Below are positions 52,549 through 60,931 of a stretch of DNA of 64,000 nucleotides, piece after piece. Within the stretch, counting starts at the first letter, position 1; the number at the start of each line of letters is the position of its first letter. Below the pieces are notes generated by a model. The model saw only the letters and a list, made by a program, of their open reading frames with translations, was not told the DNA's origin and did no database searches. The position numbers and the translations under genes were made by a program. The stretch is from Marinobacter sp. (GTDB lineage Bacteria > Pseudomonadota > Gammaproteobacteria > Pseudomonadales > Oleiphilaceae). The stretch is taken from contig JAGYIS010000010.1 of assembly GCA_018402255.1 (NCBI GenBank), positions 1 through 64,000 on the forward strand. Direction: 5' to 3'.

Positions 52549-52823
52549 TTCAGAAATTCCTTATCCTATGATTTTTGGACAATTTACGCGGAATCACATC
52601 TGGCACCGCTCATCTATAGCCACTTCAGGCTAGTGCTTCGTGCAGCCTGACGCAAACCCGGTCAGGCCAACCGCCGCGCCATTTGTTCCTGTTACCCACC
52701 AACGTTATCATGTATTCCACTAAGGTAGCTCTCCTGTTATCGCCGGCAACGGCCTAGAATAAAGGCCTAAGCCCGCTAAATACGTAATCGCCATATCACT
52801 GTTGCGATTCGGAAAGGAAGAAC

Positions 52824-53553
52824 ATGTTTTTAGACTCTTTTTACTCCGTTCAGAACGAACGCATCGTGGTTACGGAAGTACAGGCCAGCCATTTTGCAAA
52901 GGAAGTGGCCGGCGACTTCAACCCGATCCACGACCCAGGTGCTCGCCGGTTCTGCGTGCCCGGCGATCTGCTATTTGCCATTGTATTAACCCGGTTTGGC
53001 CTGCATGAGCAGATGACCTTCCGCTTCAGAAATCTGCTTTCAGCCGAAGTGCCGCTGGGGTTTAAAGAGAACCGATGATGGCACCGTGCAAGTCTGTGAC
53101 GACGCTGGCAAGATTTACCTTGAAGTCAGTCGCACAGGGGCAGTCACACGAGACGAGCAGGTAATCGAGGAGTTTATCCGTTGCTACGTGGCAGCCTCGG
53201 GCAAGAACTTCCCCCACACCCTCCAGCCGCTGATGGAGTCCCATGGCGTGATGTTCAATCCGGATCGCCCCATGGTGATGTACGAAAGCATGAGCCTTGC
53301 GCTCAACCACCTCGATAACTCAGAGGCAGACCTCGAACTCAACAAGGCCAGCCTCGACATCGCCGGCAAGCGCGGTAACGTCACGCTAGATTATCACCTG
53401 ATGTCTGCTGGCAAGGTTGTTGGAGAAGTCTCCAAAAAGCTGTTGCTGGGCAGTCTTCGTGAATATTGCCCCGATACTATGGCGGGCATTGTCGAGGAGT
53501 TTTATCGACTTAAGGCAAGGGGCACCCGGCTCGGTATGGACGACGCAGGCTAA
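52824..53553 (+). pseudogene. DUF3581 family protein, frameshifted
   Basis: A gammaproteobacterial protein of unknown function, about 242 residues restored. The N-terminus has EVAGDFNPIHDPGARRF and VPGDLLFAIVLTRFGL, a hot-dog/MaoC-like look (a His-Asp in NPIHD), so a dehydratase-like fold is possible but unproven. The frame stops after GFKEN; dropping one C at 53072-53073 lets it continue as DDGTVQVCDDAGKIYLEVSR. The start has AAGGAAG upstream. Its stop at 53551-53553 is immediately followed by the displaced fdsA tail described below. Confidence 0.75.
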
Positions 53554-53554
53554 G

Positions 53555-53590
53555 GCTACGCCGGGCTCAACCGGCATGCCGCATACTTTA
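53555..53590 (-). repeat. displaced copy of the fdsA 3' end (left direct repeat)
   Basis: The first 16 bases (53555-53570) are identical to 56343-56358, and 30 of 36 positions match 56343-56378. On the minus strand it encodes LKYAACRLSPA and a stop, against FKYAACRLSPA at the end of fdsA. Within the shared YAACRLSPA part all differences are synonymous (GCA/GCG, TGC/TGT, CGG/AGA). It is therefore a genuine gene-end copy and not a chance match. Confidence 0.8.
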
Positions 53591-53649
53591 GCTTCAAACT
53601 AGCCAGTCGGTCATTGTCACCTTCAGCACAGGCACGCGGGCAGCCGCAA

Positions 53650-54531
53650 TCAACCATCCAGAATCAGCTCCTGTTCCATGAATTTGCCGGTGGCCCGAAA
53701 CGCTTCTGCCAGGGCCATTAAAGCCAAGCCTCTCCGCGAGCGATAAAGCTCTGGTAAACCGCTCGGTGCTGTCCGGTGTTTTACGGAACCGATCCAACCA
53801 CGGTTGCCAGTCACGCGGCTGCACAAACCTGGCTTTATCACCGACCGACGCTGCTATCGTCGAGAACATTTGCAGACCACCGGCATCGTAATCGAATGCG
53901 CAGAATACGTCGTCGTAGTCCTTCAACCAGTCAAGAACTGCGCTGCTGGTCACCCGGTTGCCACCGCCCAACACCACATCGCAGCTCGCCAGATGCAAGG
54001 CCCTGCCAAGAGCCTCACCGGTGAACTTCAGCATCTGCTGATACTGGTAGAAGTTACGCTCGTTTTCTATTAGCAGCACGGAGCCTGCGCGCTGAAAACC
54101 GATGTCAACAGAATCGCTCTCGATAACAACCACATCCGGACGGCTGGATGCCAATCCCCCACGGTAAACCAGAAGAAAACTTACCTCAGTACCATGGCGA
54201 TGAGAGTCACCTTTTCTGGCGGCGTCTACTCTGTTTAAGGGAGCCTCCGCGACGTTCTGCAGCTCCGCGAAAGCAGTTTCATCCTGAACCGTGACCAGCC
54301 ATCGGTTGGACTGGACCTTTTCTGTGCCAAAGATGTCTCGATGGCGCCGGCGAAACTGCTCCGGAAGCCTCTTCAGGAAGGCTTCATAATTAATCGGTTG
54401 GCCACGCAGGATTTTGTTCAGGTAGTCGTTCAACGATGCACCGCCATAGGTCCGGGAGTTGCGCGAGCAGAGGCAAAATCAACTCGGCATTGAAAACTGA
54501 ATACAGGGTTTAGTGTAACTCTATCAACCAT
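53650..54531 (-). pseudogene. TOPRIM-like protein (JetD/DUF2220-like), frameshifted
   Basis: A protein of about 290 residues when three one-base shifts are undone. From an ATG at 54531, dropping one base in the four-base run at 54493-54496 and one in the three-base run at 54454-54456 gives FNAELILPLLAQLRTYGG leading into the open frame; a third shift near 53718-53740 restores GLALMALAEAFRATGKF and a stop at 53650. TOPRIM-type features are LLIENERNF (catalytic Glu, about 150), VVLGGGNRVTSSAVLDWL and VFCAFDYDAGGL (Asp-x-Asp). JetD of Wadjet defence and type IIB topoisomerases share this order. No jetABC genes are nearby and the function is unknown. Confidence 0.65.
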
Positions 54532-54623
54532 GGAAAGCCTGGTGCAGGGCCAAGCCAGCTAATTTCCCCATTTCGCTCTGACCTCATGCTCAATTATCAG
54601 GGAGTTACGAATGGTTCTTGGAG

Positions 54624-55049
54624 TTACTTAGTACTGGTGGCCATCATAATAATGCGCTTTACGATGCCCTTATCGGACATAACCGGTATATAGCAAGCTT
54701 CCAGCCAGTTCGGCTGCCCGTCTGCACCAAGATTCAGGAATCGTCCTTGTTGCACGTGGCCTGAAACCAGTTCACGCCAGAACCTGATGTACTCCTCACC
54801 ACGCGCATCCTCAGGCTTACAGAGCACCCGGTGATGCTCACCAATCAGCTGTTGCTCCTGGTAGCCAAGCATATCCAGAAAGACATCGCTGACCGATTCA
54901 AACAGTCCATCGCCACTCATTACCGCAAGCGCCACCGACCGCTGAATTGCCTGCCAATCGGCCTCCAGTTCAGACACCCGGTTCTCGGCGGCCTCGAGCT
55001 TTTCCAGAGCGTCCTGCAGTTCCTGCTTTCGTTTACTTTGAAACACCAT
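54624..55049 (-). CDS. coiled-coil plus PAS domain protein
   Basis: A 141-residue protein. Residues 1-35 form a coiled coil (LQDALEKLEAAENRVSELEA), and about 40-138 form a PAS domain resembling those of chemoreceptor or BdlA type (DVFLDMLGYQEQQLIGEHHR, FWRELVSGHVQQGRFLNL). No output domain is present, so it probably acts through partners or is a truncated receptor. The ATG at 55049 has AGGGAA upstream and is preferred to 55085. Confidence 0.75.
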   Translation of the reverse strand: MVFQSKRKQELQDALEKLEAAENRVSELEADWQAIQRSVALAVMSGDGLFESVSDVFLDMLGYQEQQLIGEHHRVLCKPEDARGEEYIRFWRELVSGHVQQGRFLNLGADGQPNWLEACYIPVMSDKGIVKRIIMMATSTK

Positions 55050-55270
55050 CAGTTTCCCTTTATTGAGCGTATGATCTTTTTCCAAAGTAACGAGTAGAAC
55101 AGAAACCCCAGATCACTTCAAGAGCGCGCCATGAGCCTGATATCCAAACCTTTTTATGACAGCGGCGTGGACATGTTTGCTGTCATACCCAACTGATACA
55201 GTGACAGATGCGGTTCGTAGAATAGTAGGGAGTCACCAAACGAAACCAGTTTTAACGCAAAGGAATATGT

Positions 55271-55654
55271 ATGAACAATTCTGAAGACATTCTTCAATCT
55301 CCACTGTTTCAAACCGTCGCTGACTTGGCTTTTGAATCGATCATGGTGACAAAAGCGACTTCCGATCATACAAACTCTGTGATCATCTATGTAAACCAGG
55401 CCTTCAGCAATCTGACCGGCTATTCTGCGGATGAAGTAATCGGAAAAACACCAGGATTGCTTCAGGGACCGAGAACCGAGAGCGGAGTCAAAGAGCGGTT
55501 GGCTGAAGATCTGAGGAATAACCGGACCTTTCACGGCGACACCATCAATTACCGCAAGGACGGCTCCTCGTTTGTCATTGAATGGAAAATTGCACCTTTG
55601 ATGGATGGCGACGAAGTCACCCACTATGTGGCAGTCCAGAGAGCTATCGGTTAG
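55271..55654 (+). CDS. single-domain LOV-like PAS protein lacking the photoactive cysteine
   Basis: A 127-residue stand-alone PAS domain. It follows LOV order (VNQAFSNLTGYSADEVIGK, then LLQGPRTE, NYRKDGSSFVIEWKI), but where LOV photoreceptors have GRNCRFLQ this has GKTPGLLQ, with no cysteine to form the flavin adduct. It is therefore unlikely to be a classical blue-light sensor, though it could bind flavin or another ligand. The start has AAAGGAAT upstream. The downstream CIA30 gene is on the same strand, 44 bases away. Confidence 0.78.
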   Translation: MNNSEDILQSPLFQTVADLAFESIMVTKATSDHTNSVIIYVNQAFSNLTGYSADEVIGKTPGLLQGPRTESGVKERLAEDLRNNRTFHGDTINYRKDGSSFVIEWKIAPLMDGDEVTHYVAVQRAIG

Positions 55655-55698
55655 GGCTTATAAACTCCTCCGAGCAGAGAGCGACCGAAAGAAAGCCA

Positions 55699-56226
55699 AT
55701 GAAAGACACGCACAGTAACAGCCGCGGCAACCATACCCTTGTTACGTTCGATACCAGGGGCGAGCGATTGGAATGGGACTCCTTGGGTGACCAGGTAATG
55801 GGCGGACAATCGGACGGAACGCTGGTTCACTCTGCGGAAGGAGTCGGTCTCTTTGAAGGCACCGTGCGATTGGATAACGGCGGCGGTTTTGCCTCTGTCA
55901 AAGCAGACTTGCCGGAACCCGTCGATGCCTCACAGTGGACAGGCATTGAATTGTTGGCAAAGGGCGACGGAAAAACCTACAAGATCGGCCTTCGCAACAG
56001 CACCAACCGGCGAACCGTTATTTACCAGCATGCATTCACACCAGGGACAGACGAATGGAGCCGCATCCGACTCACCTTCAGTGAGTTCATCCCTACCTGG
56101 CGCGGCAAAACATTGACCGATGAGGTGGCACTGAATCTTTCGCACCTGGCTTCAGTCAGCCTGTTTGTTTCCGGGCGCCAGGTTGGTAAATTTCAACTGA
56201 AGATGCAGGATTGGATGCTTTTCTGA
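55699..56226 (+). CDS. CIA30 family protein
   Basis: A 175-residue protein of the complex I intermediate-associated protein 30 (CIA30) family, a galactose-binding-like jelly roll. Characteristic stretches are WDSLGDQVMGGQSDGTLVHS near residues 25-44, GGFASVKADLP and the C-terminal FVSGRQVGKFQLKMQDWMLF. The eukaryotic member helps assemble complex I; bacterial roles are unclear. No signal peptide is seen. An upstream in-frame extension overlapping the PAS gene is rejected in favour of the ATG at 55699, which is preceded by GAAAG. Confidence 0.8.
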   Translation: MKDTHSNSRGNHTLVTFDTRGERLEWDSLGDQVMGGQSDGTLVHSAEGVGLFEGTVRLDNGGGFASVKADLPEPVDASQWTGIELLAKGDGKTYKIGLRNSTNRRTVIYQHAFTPGTDEWSRIRLTFSEFIPTWRGKTLTDEVALNLSHLASVSLFVSGRQVGKFQLKMQDWMLF

Positions 56227-56342
56227 TCATGAAATTGACCGGGCCTTCTTCACCCGGCGGGATCGGCTCAATTCATTCTCCACGAAAGCCCCGACGGCAC
56301 TTTGAGCGTCCCCGGATAACCCCTGATCTCGCTAGAAATGAA

Positions 56343-56378
56343 GCTACGCCGGGCTCAATCTACACGCCGCATATTTGA
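56343..56378 (-). repeat. fdsA 3' end (right direct repeat)
   Basis: The native end of fdsA, encoding FKYAACRLSPA and the stop, matches 53555-53590 in the same orientation (30 of 36 positions; 16 bases perfect at the stop-codon side). The two copies bracket 2.75 kb carrying the TOPRIM-like, two PAS and CIA30 genes. Confidence 0.8.
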
Positions 56379-59208
56379 ATTCCGGGATCTTCCCGAAAGG
56401 GTCCAGCGCCGGGTTGGTGAGCACGTTTGCTGCCGCCTCCACAAAGGCAAAGGGAACGAACACCATGCCCTCCGGCATGGTCTGGTCGGCCCGCGCCGTC
56501 AGAGTGATGGTGCCACGGCGGGTGGTGACCTGGATGGTGTTGCCCGGTGTTACTCCCAAGCGGTCCAGTTCTGCGGGAGCCAGATAGGCTGCCGCTTCCG
56601 GCTCCCGCTCGTCCAGTACCTTGCTGCGGCGGGTCATGGCGCCGGTGTGCCAGTGTTCCAGCAGTCGCCCGGTGGTTAGCACCATGGGGTAGGCTTCATC
56701 GACCGGTTCGTCTGGCGGCAGCGGCCGGGCGGGCGACAGTTTGGCGCGGCCGCCGGCGCGGGGGAAGGCATCGGAGAAGACAACGTCCTGACCCGGGGCG
56801 TCATCCGCGGGGCATGGGTAGGTTACGGAGCCTTCCCTCTCCAGGCGGGACCACGAGATATGATCCAGAGACCGCATGCCCTGTTTCATTTCAGCGAAGA
56901 CCTGCTCAGGGCCGGCATAGTCCCACGCCAAGCCGAAACGCCGGGCGATTTCCTGGATGATCCACCAGTCGGGCTTTGCCTGCCCCGGCGGCGCCAGTGC
57001 GGCGCGGCCCATTTGTACCTGCCGGTTGGTGTTGGTGACGGTGCCGGATTTTTCCGACCAGGCGGCGGCAGGCAGGATAACGTCGGCAAACTGGGCGGTC
57101 TCGGTGACGAACAGGTCCTGCACTACCAGGTGTTCCAGCGTGCCCAGCGCGGCCCGGGCGTGGGTCAGGTCCGGGTCAGACATGGCTGGATTTTCGCCAA
57201 GGATATACATGCCCTTGATGGTGCCTGCAGTGATGGCGTCCATGATCTCCACAACGGTGAGCCCGGGCTTCGGGTCCAGTTTGGTATTCCAGAGTTCTTC
57301 GAATGCGGCCCGCAGCTGGGTGTCGCCTACCGCTTGGTAGTCTGGCAGCACCATTGGGATCATGCCGGCATCGGAGGCACCCTGGACGTTGTTCTGGCCA
57401 CGCAATGGGTGCAGGCCGGTGCCGGGCCGGCCCGTGTGGCCGCAGGTCAGGGCCATTGATATCAGGCAACGGGCGTTGTCGGTGCCGTGTACGTGCTGGG
57501 ATATCCCCATGCCCCAGAAGATCATCGCGTTTTCGGCGCCGGCGTAGGCCCGGGCCACTTCGCGGATGGCGTCTGGTTCAACGCCGCAAACCGGGCTCAT
57601 GGCCTCCGGGGTCATGTCAGCGACACTGGCGGCCAGCACATCAAACCCTTCGGTATGGGCATCAATGTAAGCCTGATCGTAGAGCCCTTCGCTGATGATC
57701 ACATTGAGCATGGCGTTTAACAGCGATACGTCGCCCCCCGGCGAAAACCGCAGGCTGCGCCAGGCGTAAGCGTCCAGAGCCTGGCCCCGGGGGTCGATGA
57801 TGATCAGCCTGGTGCCGTTGCGGGCCGCCTGTTTGAAGTAGGTGGCGGCCACCGGGTGGTTCACGGCCGGATTGCAGCCGGTAAGGATCACCACATCGGC
57901 CTCAAGCGCCTGCATAAAGGAGGCGGTGACGGCGCCGGAGCCCAGGCACTCCATGAGCGCGGCCACGGAGCTGGCGTGGCAAAGCCGCGTGCAATGGTCC
58001 ACGTGGTTGGAGCCGAAACCGGTGCGCACCAGCTTCTGGAACAGCCAGGCTTCTTCGTTGGAACACTTGGCGCTGCCAAAACCGGCGAGCGCGCTGGGAC
58101 CGTATTGGCCTTTGAGTTTCATCAGTCCGGTGGTCGCAAGATTCAGTGCCTCTTCCCAACTCGCCTCGCGAAAATGCGTCAGGGGATTGGCCGGATCAAA
58201 ATCAGGGTCGACGCCCTTGGCCATGCCTTCCCGGCGGATCAGCGGTTTGGTCAGCCGTGCCGGGTGGGAGGGATAATCGAAGCCGAAGCGTCCCTTAACA
58301 CAGAGCCGGTTCTGGTTTGAGGGGCCATCTTTACCTTCCACAAACAGGATGCGTCCGCGTTGCTCCCCTGCTCCGTTTTGCGCTGGCGCGTCTTTGACGT
58401 GATAGGTCAACTGGCAGCCCACCCCACAATAGGGGCAGATGGAATCCACGGTGCGATCGGCGATGGCGGAATCCCCACGGCCGACCGTATCAATCAGGGT
58501 GGCGGGCATCAGCGCCCCGGTTGGGCAGGCCTGCACGCATTCGCCGCAGGCCACACAGGTGCTGTCGCCCATGGGGTCGTCGAAGTCAAAGACGACTTTG
58601 GATTCGGCGCCACGATGCGCCAGGCCGATCACGTCATTGCCCTGCACTTCCCGGCAGGCGCGTTCGCACAGACCGCAAGTGATGCAGGCGTCCAGGTTCA
58701 CGCTCATGGCCGGATGGGTGGCGTCCTGCCCCCGGGCGTGCGGCAGTGCATCGGACCTTGGTTCGACATGGTGCACCGTGGGCTCTGCCCGATCTGAACG
58801 GGCCGGGATGCGCCGGCGCAAAGAACCGGCATCAATGGCCAGTTGATCCGCGATACCCCACAGATGGCTGGAGCGGTCGGGGCTGTCTGATCGCTCGGGC
58901 TGGTCCGCCAACAGCAATTCCAGCACCGCTGTACGGGCCGCCCGGACACGGCTGGAGCCCGCACTGCGCACGACCATGCCGGGTACCGCCTGACGAATGC
59001 AGCTGGCGGCGAGTACCCGTTCGCCTTCCACTTCTACCATGCAGGCTCGACAGTTGCCGTCCGCTCGATAACCGGGGGCGTCTTTGAAGCACAGGTGCGG
59101 AATGGTCTCGCCGGCGCGTTTGGCCACCTGCCAGAGGGTTTCGCCGGGATAGGCCTGAACTTCCACGTCGTCCAGTGTCAGGGTGAAGCTTCTGTTGGTG
59201 TTGCTCAT
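56344..59208 (-). CDS. fdsA: NAD-dependent formate dehydrogenase catalytic subunit
   Basis: A 954-residue molybdenum or tungsten enzyme oxidising formate to CO2. In order: NuoG-type [2Fe-2S] domain (CFKDAPGYRADGNCRACM near residues 40-57), two [4Fe-4S] clusters (CITCGLCERAC and CVACGECVQACP near 175-230), the Mo-domain cluster (CPYCGVGC near 258), then the bis-MGD domains. The metal ligand is Cys (TRLCHA, codon TGC), not selenocysteine. It is 7 bases after the fused diaphorase gene. fdhD and fdsD are not in the window. Confidence 0.92.
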   Translation of the reverse strand: MSNTNRSFTLTLDDVEVQAYPGETLWQVAKRAGETIPHLCFKDAPGYRADGNCRACMVEVEGERVLAASCIRQAVPGMVVRSAGSSRVRAARTAVLELLLADQPERSDSPDRSSHLWGIADQLAIDAGSLRRRIPARSDRAEPTVHHVEPRSDALPHARGQDATHPAMSVNLDACITCGLCERACREVQGNDVIGLAHRGAESKVVFDFDDPMGDSTCVACGECVQACPTGALMPATLIDTVGRGDSAIADRTVDSICPYCGVGCQLTYHVKDAPAQNGAGEQRGRILFVEGKDGPSNQNRLCVKGRFGFDYPSHPARLTKPLIRREGMAKGVDPDFDPANPLTHFREASWEEALNLATTGLMKLKGQYGPSALAGFGSAKCSNEEAWLFQKLVRTGFGSNHVDHCTRLCHASSVAALMECLGSGAVTASFMQALEADVVILTGCNPAVNHPVAATYFKQAARNGTRLIIIDPRGQALDAYAWRSLRFSPGGDVSLLNAMLNVIISEGLYDQAYIDAHTEGFDVLAASVADMTPEAMSPVCGVEPDAIREVARAYAGAENAMIFWGMGISQHVHGTDNARCLISMALTCGHTGRPGTGLHPLRGQNNVQGASDAGMIPMVLPDYQAVGDTQLRAAFEELWNTKLDPKPGLTVVEIMDAITAGTIKGMYILGENPAMSDPDLTHARAALGTLEHLVVQDLFVTETAQFADVILPAAAWSEKSGTVTNTNRQVQMGRAALAPPGQAKPDWWIIQEIARRFGLAWDYAGPEQVFAEMKQGMRSLDHISWSRLEREGSVTYPCPADDAPGQDVVFSDAFPRAGGRAKLSPARPLPPDEPVDEAYPMVLTTGRLLEHWHTGAMTRRSKVLDEREPEAAAYLAPAELDRLGVTPGNTIQVTTRRGTITLTARADQTMPEGMVFVPFAFVEAAANVLTNPALDPFGKIPEFKYAACRLSPA

Positions 59209-59215
59209 GGTGGCC

Positions 59216-60931
59216 CTACCCTTTAGCGATCAGGTTCTGGCTGGCGAGTTCGGTGCGAAAATCCCGCAACAGGCTCAGCACCGGGTTGGGTGCGGCCTGG
59301 CCCAGGCCGCAGATGGAGGCATCCGCCATCACCCGGGCCAGGTTTTGGAGCGTGTCCTCATCCCAGGTTGTGCGTTCCAGCAAGGTGAGCATTTTCTCGG
59401 TGCCCACACGGCAGGGGGTGCACTGCCCGCAGGACTCATCCGCGAAAAAACCCAGAAGGTTGGTTGCCGCGGCTTGCAGGTTGTCCTGATTCGATAGCAC
59501 GATCACCGCGGCAGAGCCGATAAAGCAGCCGTGCTCCTGGAGAGTGTCGAAGTCCAGCGGGATGTCAGCTTTGCTGGCGGGCAGGATTCCGCCGGAAGCC
59601 CCGCCGGGCAGATAGGCCAGAAGGCGGTGCCCTTCGGCCATGCCACCGCAGTGTTCCTCTATTAGTTCATTGAGGGTGATACCTGCAGGTGCAAGATGGA
59701 CGCCCGGCCGGGCCACCCGTCCGGAGACTGAAAAGCTGCGAAGCCCCTTACGACCGTGGCGCCCCTGGCTCGCGAACCATTCGGCGCCCTGGGCATGGAT
59801 GCGGGGGATCCAGTAAGCCGTCTCCACGTTGTTTACCAGGGTTGGCTGATCAAACAGGCCCTTCTGGGCCACAAACGGTGGGCGATGGCGCGGTTTGCCG
59901 GCTTTACCCTCCAGAGATTCGATCAGGGCGGATTCTTCGCCGCAGATGTAGGCTCCAGCGCCACGGCGCAAAATAATGAAGCCCGGCTCGACGAGACCGG
60001 CGGCTTCCAGCTCGGCCAAGGCCTCGGTCAGCACCTTATGCAAGCCCGGATATTCATCCCGCAGATAGATATAAAGGGCCTTTGCGTCCACTGCCCAGGC
60101 GCCAACCAGGGCCCCTTCCAGAAAAACATGAGGTTCATGCTCCAGGTAATAGCGATCCTTGAAAGTGCCCGGTTCGCCCTCGTCGGCGTTGATTACGGCA
60201 TAGCGTGGCCCCGGCTCGGCTCGCACCGCCCGCCATTTGAGGTAGGTGGGAAAACCGGCGCCGCCCAGTCCGCGCAGGCCCGCATGTTCCAGTTCCTGCT
60301 CCAGCGATTCGACGCTCACCCGGCCTTCTCGGCAATCGGCCAGCAGTCCATAACCGCCGGTAGAACAGTAATTCGCCAGGCGTTGCCAGTGAATCTCTTC
60401 CGGGTGAATCTGGCCGTCTTCCACCGCCGCACCCACATTCTGGACATTGGCATGGCCCACATGATGGCGGCCAACTTCCACCACCGGTGCTGTGTCGCAG
60501 CGCCCCATGCAGGGTGCCCGCTTTACCCTTACCCGGGCCGGATCAACACCGTCAGTCAACGCCTGATGCAGTGCTTCTGCCCCGGCCAGATGGCAGGATA
60601 GTGAGTCACACACCCGCAGGGTCAACCAAGGCGGCGGTGCCTGTTCGTCGTGAATAACGTCAAAATGGGCGTAAAAAGTAGCGGTTTCGTAAACAGCGGC
60701 CATGGGAAGATTCAGGAAAGCCGCCAAGGCCCTGAGCCGGGGCATTGAGAGGTAACCGTAGGTGTCCTGAACTGCGTGCAGGTGTTCGATCAGATGATCC
60801 CGTCGGCGCAGTGACGAATCGATGCGTTCGTCACCGATCAGGCCGCGAAGCTCGTCGAGTATGACAGGCTCCAGTTGGCGTCCCCGAGGTGAAGATCGCC
60901 GGGGTTTGACCATCTTATCGTGTATTTTCAT
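59216..60931 (-). CDS. formate dehydrogenase FdsG-FdsB fusion (NuoE-NuoF-like diaphorase)
   Basis: A 571-residue fusion passing electrons from FdsA to NAD+. The N-terminal 170 residues are the NuoE/FdsG thioredoxin-like [2Fe-2S] domain (CDSLSC and APCMGRCD). The rest is NuoF/FdsB: FMN/NAD region LRGLGGAGFPTYLKW near 190, ICGEESALIESLEG near 325, and the [4Fe-4S] cluster CGQCTPCRVGTEKM with SICGLG near the C-terminus. FdsG and FdsB are separate genes in Cupriavidus, so the fusion is a noteworthy but known variant. The start is uncertain (a second ATG is at 60913). Confidence 0.88.
   Translation of the reverse strand: MKIHDKMVKPRRSSPRGRQLEPVILDELRGLIGDERIDSSLRRRDHLIEHLHAVQDTYGYLSMPRLRALAAFLNLPMAAVYETATFYAHFDVIHDEQAPPPWLTLRVCDSLSCHLAGAEALHQALTDGVDPARVRVKRAPCMGRCDTAPVVEVGRHHVGHANVQNVGAAVEDGQIHPEEIHWQRLANYCSTGGYGLLADCREGRVSVESLEQELEHAGLRGLGGAGFPTYLKWRAVRAEPGPRYAVINADEGEPGTFKDRYYLEHEPHVFLEGALVGAWAVDAKALYIYLRDEYPGLHKVLTEALAELEAAGLVEPGFIILRRGAGAYICGEESALIESLEGKAGKPRHRPPFVAQKGLFDQPTLVNNVETAYWIPRIHAQGAEWFASQGRHGRKGLRSFSVSGRVARPGVHLAPAGITLNELIEEHCGGMAEGHRLLAYLPGGASGGILPASKADIPLDFDTLQEHGCFIGSAAVIVLSNQDNLQAAATNLLGFFADESCGQCTPCRVGTEKMLTLLERTTWDEDTLQNLARVMADASICGLGQAAPNPVLSLLRDFRTELASQNLIAKG

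Follow-up and report, generated by a model that had tools for sequence, protein, structure and literature searches.

The window, a 64,000-nucleotide stretch of the Marinobacter genome G000, carries on its minus strand fdsB (59216..60931), the upstream gene of its operon, which encodes a fused small and beta subunit of 571 aa, and fdsA (56344..59208), which encodes the 954-aa formate dehydrogenase alpha subunit. Both are open reading frames with Pfam matches, fdsA to Molybdopterin, Molydop_binding and Fer2_4. The last codons of fdsA constitute its current tail (56343-56376, minus strand), and a repeat search places a second copy of them, KYAACRLSPA-stop, at 53555..53588, identically oriented and 2,788 bp beyond the fdsA stop. 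This relic tail, which is read as a displaced older gene end, starts one base past the stop codon of a DUF3581 gene on the plus strand (52824..53553). The second half of the DUF3581 gene matches PF12119 (E 6e-48), and alignment to the intact copy in the sister genome G051 locates a frameshift near 53080.

The segment between the two tails contains both genes and gene fragments. Next to the relic lies a probable C-terminal fragment of a LysR regulator (FKLASRSLSPSAQA; 53591..53640, plus), recognized from a short nucleotide match and from its peptide by eye, and overlapping it on the minus strand is an orphaned gene resembling jetD of the Wadjet system (53594..54433), which comparison with relatives shows to be frameshifted after about residue 238. 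Two PAS-domain genes follow, both identified by Pfam. The first (54624..55085, minus) is missing at the counterpart place in G051, where the alignment has a gap, and the second (55271..55654, plus) is common to the window and G051; its PAS domain is LOV-like around the LQG motif and seemingly lacks the photoactive cysteine. A CIA30-domain gene (55702..56226, plus; PF08547, E 3e-40) is followed by two remnants identified through Pfam matches of relatives: 59 bases of the 3' end of a flavin oxidoreductase (Oxidored_FMN) gene (56240..56298, minus), complete in G051 with 440 aa, and about 45 internal bases of an amine-oxidase gene (56294..56338, minus; relative L022:7630-8724).

Analysis of the two tails reveals that 53555-53588 and 56343-56376 form the longest direct repeat found in the surrounding 7.5 kb. 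Across 36 bases, 30 are identical, while the next best place in the whole window reaches 21 and the best match in 200 simulated 64 kb windows (first-order Markov) reaches 24, a distance that rules out chance similarity. Both copies read YAACRLSPA-stop in frame, and none of the four in-frame base differences (GCG/GCA, TGT/TGC, AGA/CGG) alters an amino acid. If all four arose neutrally, the probability of synonymous-only differences is 0.002; this is not decisive, because the current tail changes under selection. The duplication with its 30 matching positions, the synonymous differences and the single base separating relic and DUF3581 stop had all been noted in the sequence-only reading, and each is borne out. 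Moreover, the separately assembled G051, 92% identical to the window over 52800-53660, carries the relic at the same place (G051:C47:18079-18108), where it is already drifting (FAARRLSPA), so that an assembly artefact is also ruled out. The second fdsA tail of the window is thus a real repeat. At 30 compared sites the relic differs from the tail of another genome at 2 and from its own at 4, a slight margin.

The cargo between the window tails may have a composite history. In most relatives only residues 1-238 of the JetD-like protein are matched, and in the window the protein matches neither a Pfam nor a PADLOC model. Family assignment comes instead from relatives, where L038 matches PADLOC JetD at E 1e-8 and L025 at E 5e-4, the latter with JetD_C at E 1.3e-4 and 21.8 bits (cut-off 22); these values weakly suggest that the TOPRIM-like gene, broken in the window, belongs to a JetD-like family. 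The relatives' homologue adjoins a JetC-like gene, and loci that reach further show two extra genes beside the JetC/JetD-like pair, one MksE/JetB-like (in one locus scanned) and one matching no model. The window locus resembles Wadjet (JetABCD) through its JetD-like gene and this row in relatives; it differs in that the window keeps only the frameshifted gene at 53594-54433, with no JetA-, JetB- or JetC-like gene beside it and hence no complete JetABCD operon, that the family matches in relatives are weak, and that the fourth gene of the row is without a model match. In G051 the JetD-like gene is complete (260 aa) and DUF3581 is intact. Relative to it, each of the two window genes carries a single-base frameshift, which may reflect either decay or assembly error. 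Within 53655-54433, identity of the JetD-like gene to G051 is 93% up to 54000 and 77% beyond, while identity to G009 is 83% up to 54000 and 95% thereafter, a switch that is a sign of recombination inside the gene.

The LysR assignment of 53591..53640 follows from two alignments with the end of a LysR gene in G048, one of 40 nt at 85% (E 3.5e-5) and one of 32 nt at 87.5% (E 0.016); tblastn does not report the fragment. The G051 segment bears the same scar with one PAS gene missing and the flavin oxidoreductase gene complete, which contradicts the proposal that the TOPRIM-like gene, the two PAS genes and CIA30 entered as one four-gene unit. As a cargo inventory, that proposal correctly named four genes that are present; it omitted the flavin oxidoreductase, amine-oxidase and probable LysR fragments and the frameshifts. 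Judged from these alignments, the window segment is an eroded patchwork of gene fragments rather than four intact cargo genes. Additionally, some distant relatives have JetD-like, CIA30 and flavin oxidoreductase genes downstream of fdsA as well, so an old fdsA neighbourhood rather than a single element may account for part of the cargo.

The wider distribution of such junctions was surveyed in 124 Marinobacter genomes. DUF3581 is matched in 107 and an fdsA end in 44, counting G000 and a fragment in G125; 41 of these 44 ends were examined in detail, G010, G100 and G125 being left out. Only in G000, G051 and G132 do fdsA and DUF3581 lie on one contig less than 10 kb apart, distances being undefined across contigs. 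DUF3581 directly downstream of fdsA, without intervening genes, is found at none of the 41 ends. The nearest case is G132 (L090), in which fdsA and fdsB have decayed by internal deletions 5.3 kb from DUF3581 and another gene is convergent to DUF3581. The empty site in relatives that would support the suggestion of DUF3581 and fdsA as former direct convergent neighbours is accordingly not found in this sample.

A second tail downstream of fdsA in the same orientation occurs at 5 of the 41 ends, with stop-to-relic distances of 2,788 bp in G000, 3.47 kb in G051, 1,412 bp in G062, 1,158 bp in G040 and 815 bp in G080. A degenerate tail pattern allowing up to 3 mismatches, run on all 124 genomes, recovers two tails in G000, G040, G062 and G080; in G051 it detects the relic and misses the genome's own altered fdsA end (KYAACRLSLL). 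A separate search of the 41 loci, covering at least 3.3 kb downstream, returns the same five genomes. A second match on another contig of G010 and a lone match in G086, with 3 mismatches each, are read as chance, and widening the search to 163 genomes of the family adds no further second tail. The exact pattern retrieves 34 stretches from the genome collection, two of which, from M. maroccanus N4 and M. algicola DG893 (taken to be G062 and G040), carry it twice. In all five genomes the relic is closer to the tail of some other genome than to its own, as is partly expected when 40 other tails are available for comparison. Phage or viral carriage of the tail was considered and rejected, the exact pattern being absent from viral contigs and without a phage match. 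The plasmid search gave 22 records, none covering 80% of the query, and among the best 10 of the 22 the matches were to fdhF or, distantly, to the cassette genes.

In G062, G040 and G080 the second tail bounds a piece of 0.8-1.4 kb that is unrelated to the window cargo and consists of PDC-M21A/B, candidate defence genes. Both G062 genes match this PADLOC candidate system (PDC-M21A, E 7e-75; PDC-M21B, E 1e-95), whose defence role is a candidate one only; it differs from the window cargo in that a search for PDC-M21B found none in G000. PDC-M21B is complete only in G062, being damaged or mostly missing in G040 and G080. Relatives provide empty sites for this cassette: the far tail and its flank in the cassette genomes match the empty-site species, and 119 nt separate the relic stop from the next gene in each of the three, exactly the distance from the fdsA stop to the next gene in 7 of 7 empty sites checked (G124, G090, G122, G039, G043, G023 and G087). 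The expectation that fdsA-end repeats would be found around other gene content, as at a repeated hotspot, is thereby confirmed by three other genomes with unrelated cargo and empty-site relatives. The PDC-M21 pairs of G136 (L122), presumably downstream of a HIT-domain-like gene, and of G092 (L124), inside what we take to be a BREX-type cluster, have at their flanks, over the stretches compared, no direct repeat above 9 nt, which indicates that the cassette does not always move by the tail route.

The origin of the tails is clearest in G040. Within 40 nt of the fdsA stop, 9 informative sites side with the cassette-bearer G062 and 4 with the empty-site genome G122, whereas between -200 and -40 the counts are 5 and 19 (Fisher p 0.006, or p 0.03 with sites out to -600, for a comparison chosen after seeing the data). 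The G040 relic, conversely, is G122-like from position -25 on and differs from the native tail of G122 at 2 of 30 sites as against 8 from its own current tail. On the fdsA side the relatedness thus changes 25-40 nt ahead of the stop, and the relic shows its change in the same stretch, with both switch points lying within about 15 bases around GGAGTTCAAGTA. Furthermore, the serine-bearing variant CSLSPA occurs only in G040 and G062 among the 41 ends. The natural reading of these patterns is that the current G040 tail would have come with the cassette and that the relic would be the native tail. In G080 the tail is CRLSPA and close to that of G043, so that it may be of either origin. Relic and flank differ between G040 and G062 about as much as elsewhere, so shared descent of the insert in these two genomes is possible.

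These features are best accommodated by site-specific integration in trans at the fdsA 3' end, to which roughly even confidence is attached. Under this model, the fdsA 3' end would act as an attachment-like insertion point in Marinobacter, and incoming DNA would bring along its own version of the gene's final 30-40 bases. Recombination in a short core (GGAGTTCAAGTA, codons E-F-K-Y) would join the resident fdsA body to the incoming tail, which keeps fdsA whole and places the resident tail beyond the insert, with a site-specific recombinase presumably supplied in trans. The window insert, comprising the JetD-like remnant, PAS and CIA30 genes, would have arisen in the same way, earlier than the PDC-M21 cases, and would later have been eroded by deletion and frameshift; its resident fdsA would have ended one base from DUF3581. 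Observed directly are the tail relics, the empty sites of PDC-M21 and the change of relatedness near the G040 fdsA end. The fdsA tail stands as a direct repeat at both insert boundaries in 5 of 41 loci, the window included, and the window relic starts at roughly the codons where the others do, right after the probable LysR fragment. The proposal that DNA entered at the fdsA 3' end with its own copy of the gene end is supported by three other genomes, most clearly G040; for the window itself, no empty DUF3581/fdsA site was found.

The absence of an integrase, remarked on from the start, is upheld for tyrosine integrases: a tyrosine recombinase search finds none encoded in the inserts. The nearest ones lie at about 322 kb in G000, 249 kb in G062, 127 kb in G040 and 22 kb in G080 (on the fdsB side), and the G051 contig has none. 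A helper acting in trans, or one since lost, must therefore be assumed. An autonomous element with a tyrosine integrase at fdsA was sought and not found, over the full list for 5 genomes and among the matches listed for 27. A scan for integrase motifs, which had no working positive control, found nothing close to the fdsA ends and made two doubtful matches in other places. A more far-reaching formulation, in which fdsA in Marinobacter would be an attachment site for a family of mini-elements of 1.4 kb or more that lack an integrase, bear candidate defence genes together with 30-45 nt copied from the fdsA end and are mobilized by a recombinase in trans, the window containing the eroded trace of one with Wadjet, is put forward tentatively.

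The main rival, especially for the window, is homology-facilitated illegitimate recombination, by which linear foreign DNA containing the 3' part of fdsA and its downstream genes would recombine homologously within fdsA and illegitimately on the other side, leaving the resident tail as a scar without any dedicated recombinase. It would yield the same product, and such a mechanism, with the old 3' end shifted back, is proposed in PMC5361080 for Vibrio effector-immunity arrays. The required donor layout is a natural one: downstream of fdsA, some other species carry JetD-like, CIA30 and flavin oxidoreductase genes. A ComEC (Competence) domain was detected in 6 of the 6 genomes searched, a weak indication that E. 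coli and others share. Against this stands the G040 switch, 25-40 nt from the stop on both the fdsA and relic sides, a position that long tracts would rarely produce on both. The relics are also short whichever of the two cargo types they bound, though any long repeats would probably be unstable and lost. As to a long homologous donor tract in fdsA, none is seen in G040, and along the window fdsA the nearest relatives change. Illegitimate recombination is accordingly a serious possibility that nevertheless falls clearly short of even. An ancestral duplication or an old resident copy, with the relic as the last trace of another fdsA gene or fds operon whose end formerly adjoined DUF3581, appears unlikely, though it retains some probability for the window taken by itself. 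The decayed fdsA/fdsB of G132, 5.3 kb from DUF3581, demonstrates that fdsA decay near DUF3581 occurs, and the confinement of all four in-frame differences to synonymous changes also speaks for it; no further fdsA sequence lies beside the relic, however, the probable LysR fragment and JetD-like gene being immediately next to it, and the PDC-M21 cases would be left unexplained. Transposon target-site duplication shares with the chance similarity dismissed above a very low probability: it would account for short direct repeats at the insert flanks, but it copies resident sequence, and it is rejected since the current tail of G040 looks foreign.

Integration in trans has parallels among known elements. 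Islands and phage satellites integrate at the 3' ends of genes (fis, icd and tRNA genes) by an att identity block, according to PMC10111431, and resemble the present case in that the element supplies a new gene end, which keeps the target gene working, while the old end is found beyond the insert. The fdsA inserts differ from the elements described there in having no integrase inside, in spanning 0.8-3.5 kb from tail to tail and in targeting fdsA. The effector-immunity arrays of the Vibrio cholerae T6SS, perhaps formed by homology-facilitated illegitimate recombination (PMC5361080), likewise have new DNA displacing a resident gene end whose old 3' part stays downstream; here, by comparison, about 33-45 nt of the old gene are left, the host gene is metabolic and the G040 switch lies at the very end.

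Other candidate defence genes also occupy the position downstream of fdsA. For example, the genes just downstream in other species include type I restriction (G045), DndF (G056), SspF (G024), MzaC (G007), HmaA with PtuA (G055) and a type IV restriction-like protein (G067, with a homologue in G003). The protein directly downstream of fdsA at L105 (G067) and L024 (G003) has about 1,280 residues and combines methyltransferase, PLD, helicase and DUF3427 parts. When each distinct cluster is represented by a single first gene of 150 aa or longer, with the window excluded and PADLOC E up to 1e-10, 8 of 20 clusters are matched downstream of fdsA versus 3 of 17 upstream, an enrichment that is suggestive without being convincing. 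First genes are highly diverse on either side of the operon, falling into 20 clusters at the 41 downstream loci and 19 at the 24 upstream ones, which indicates that the operon itself sits in variable places.

The literature searched contained no mention of fdsA as such an insertion site. Small defence modules can occupy conserved places even when they lack mobility genes, and their arrival route is often unclear. A gene-end scar whose tail apparently came with the insert, and for which there are empty sites and a second, independent cargo, makes the fdsA end a place where a recombinase acting in trans can be tested directly against illegitimate recombination.
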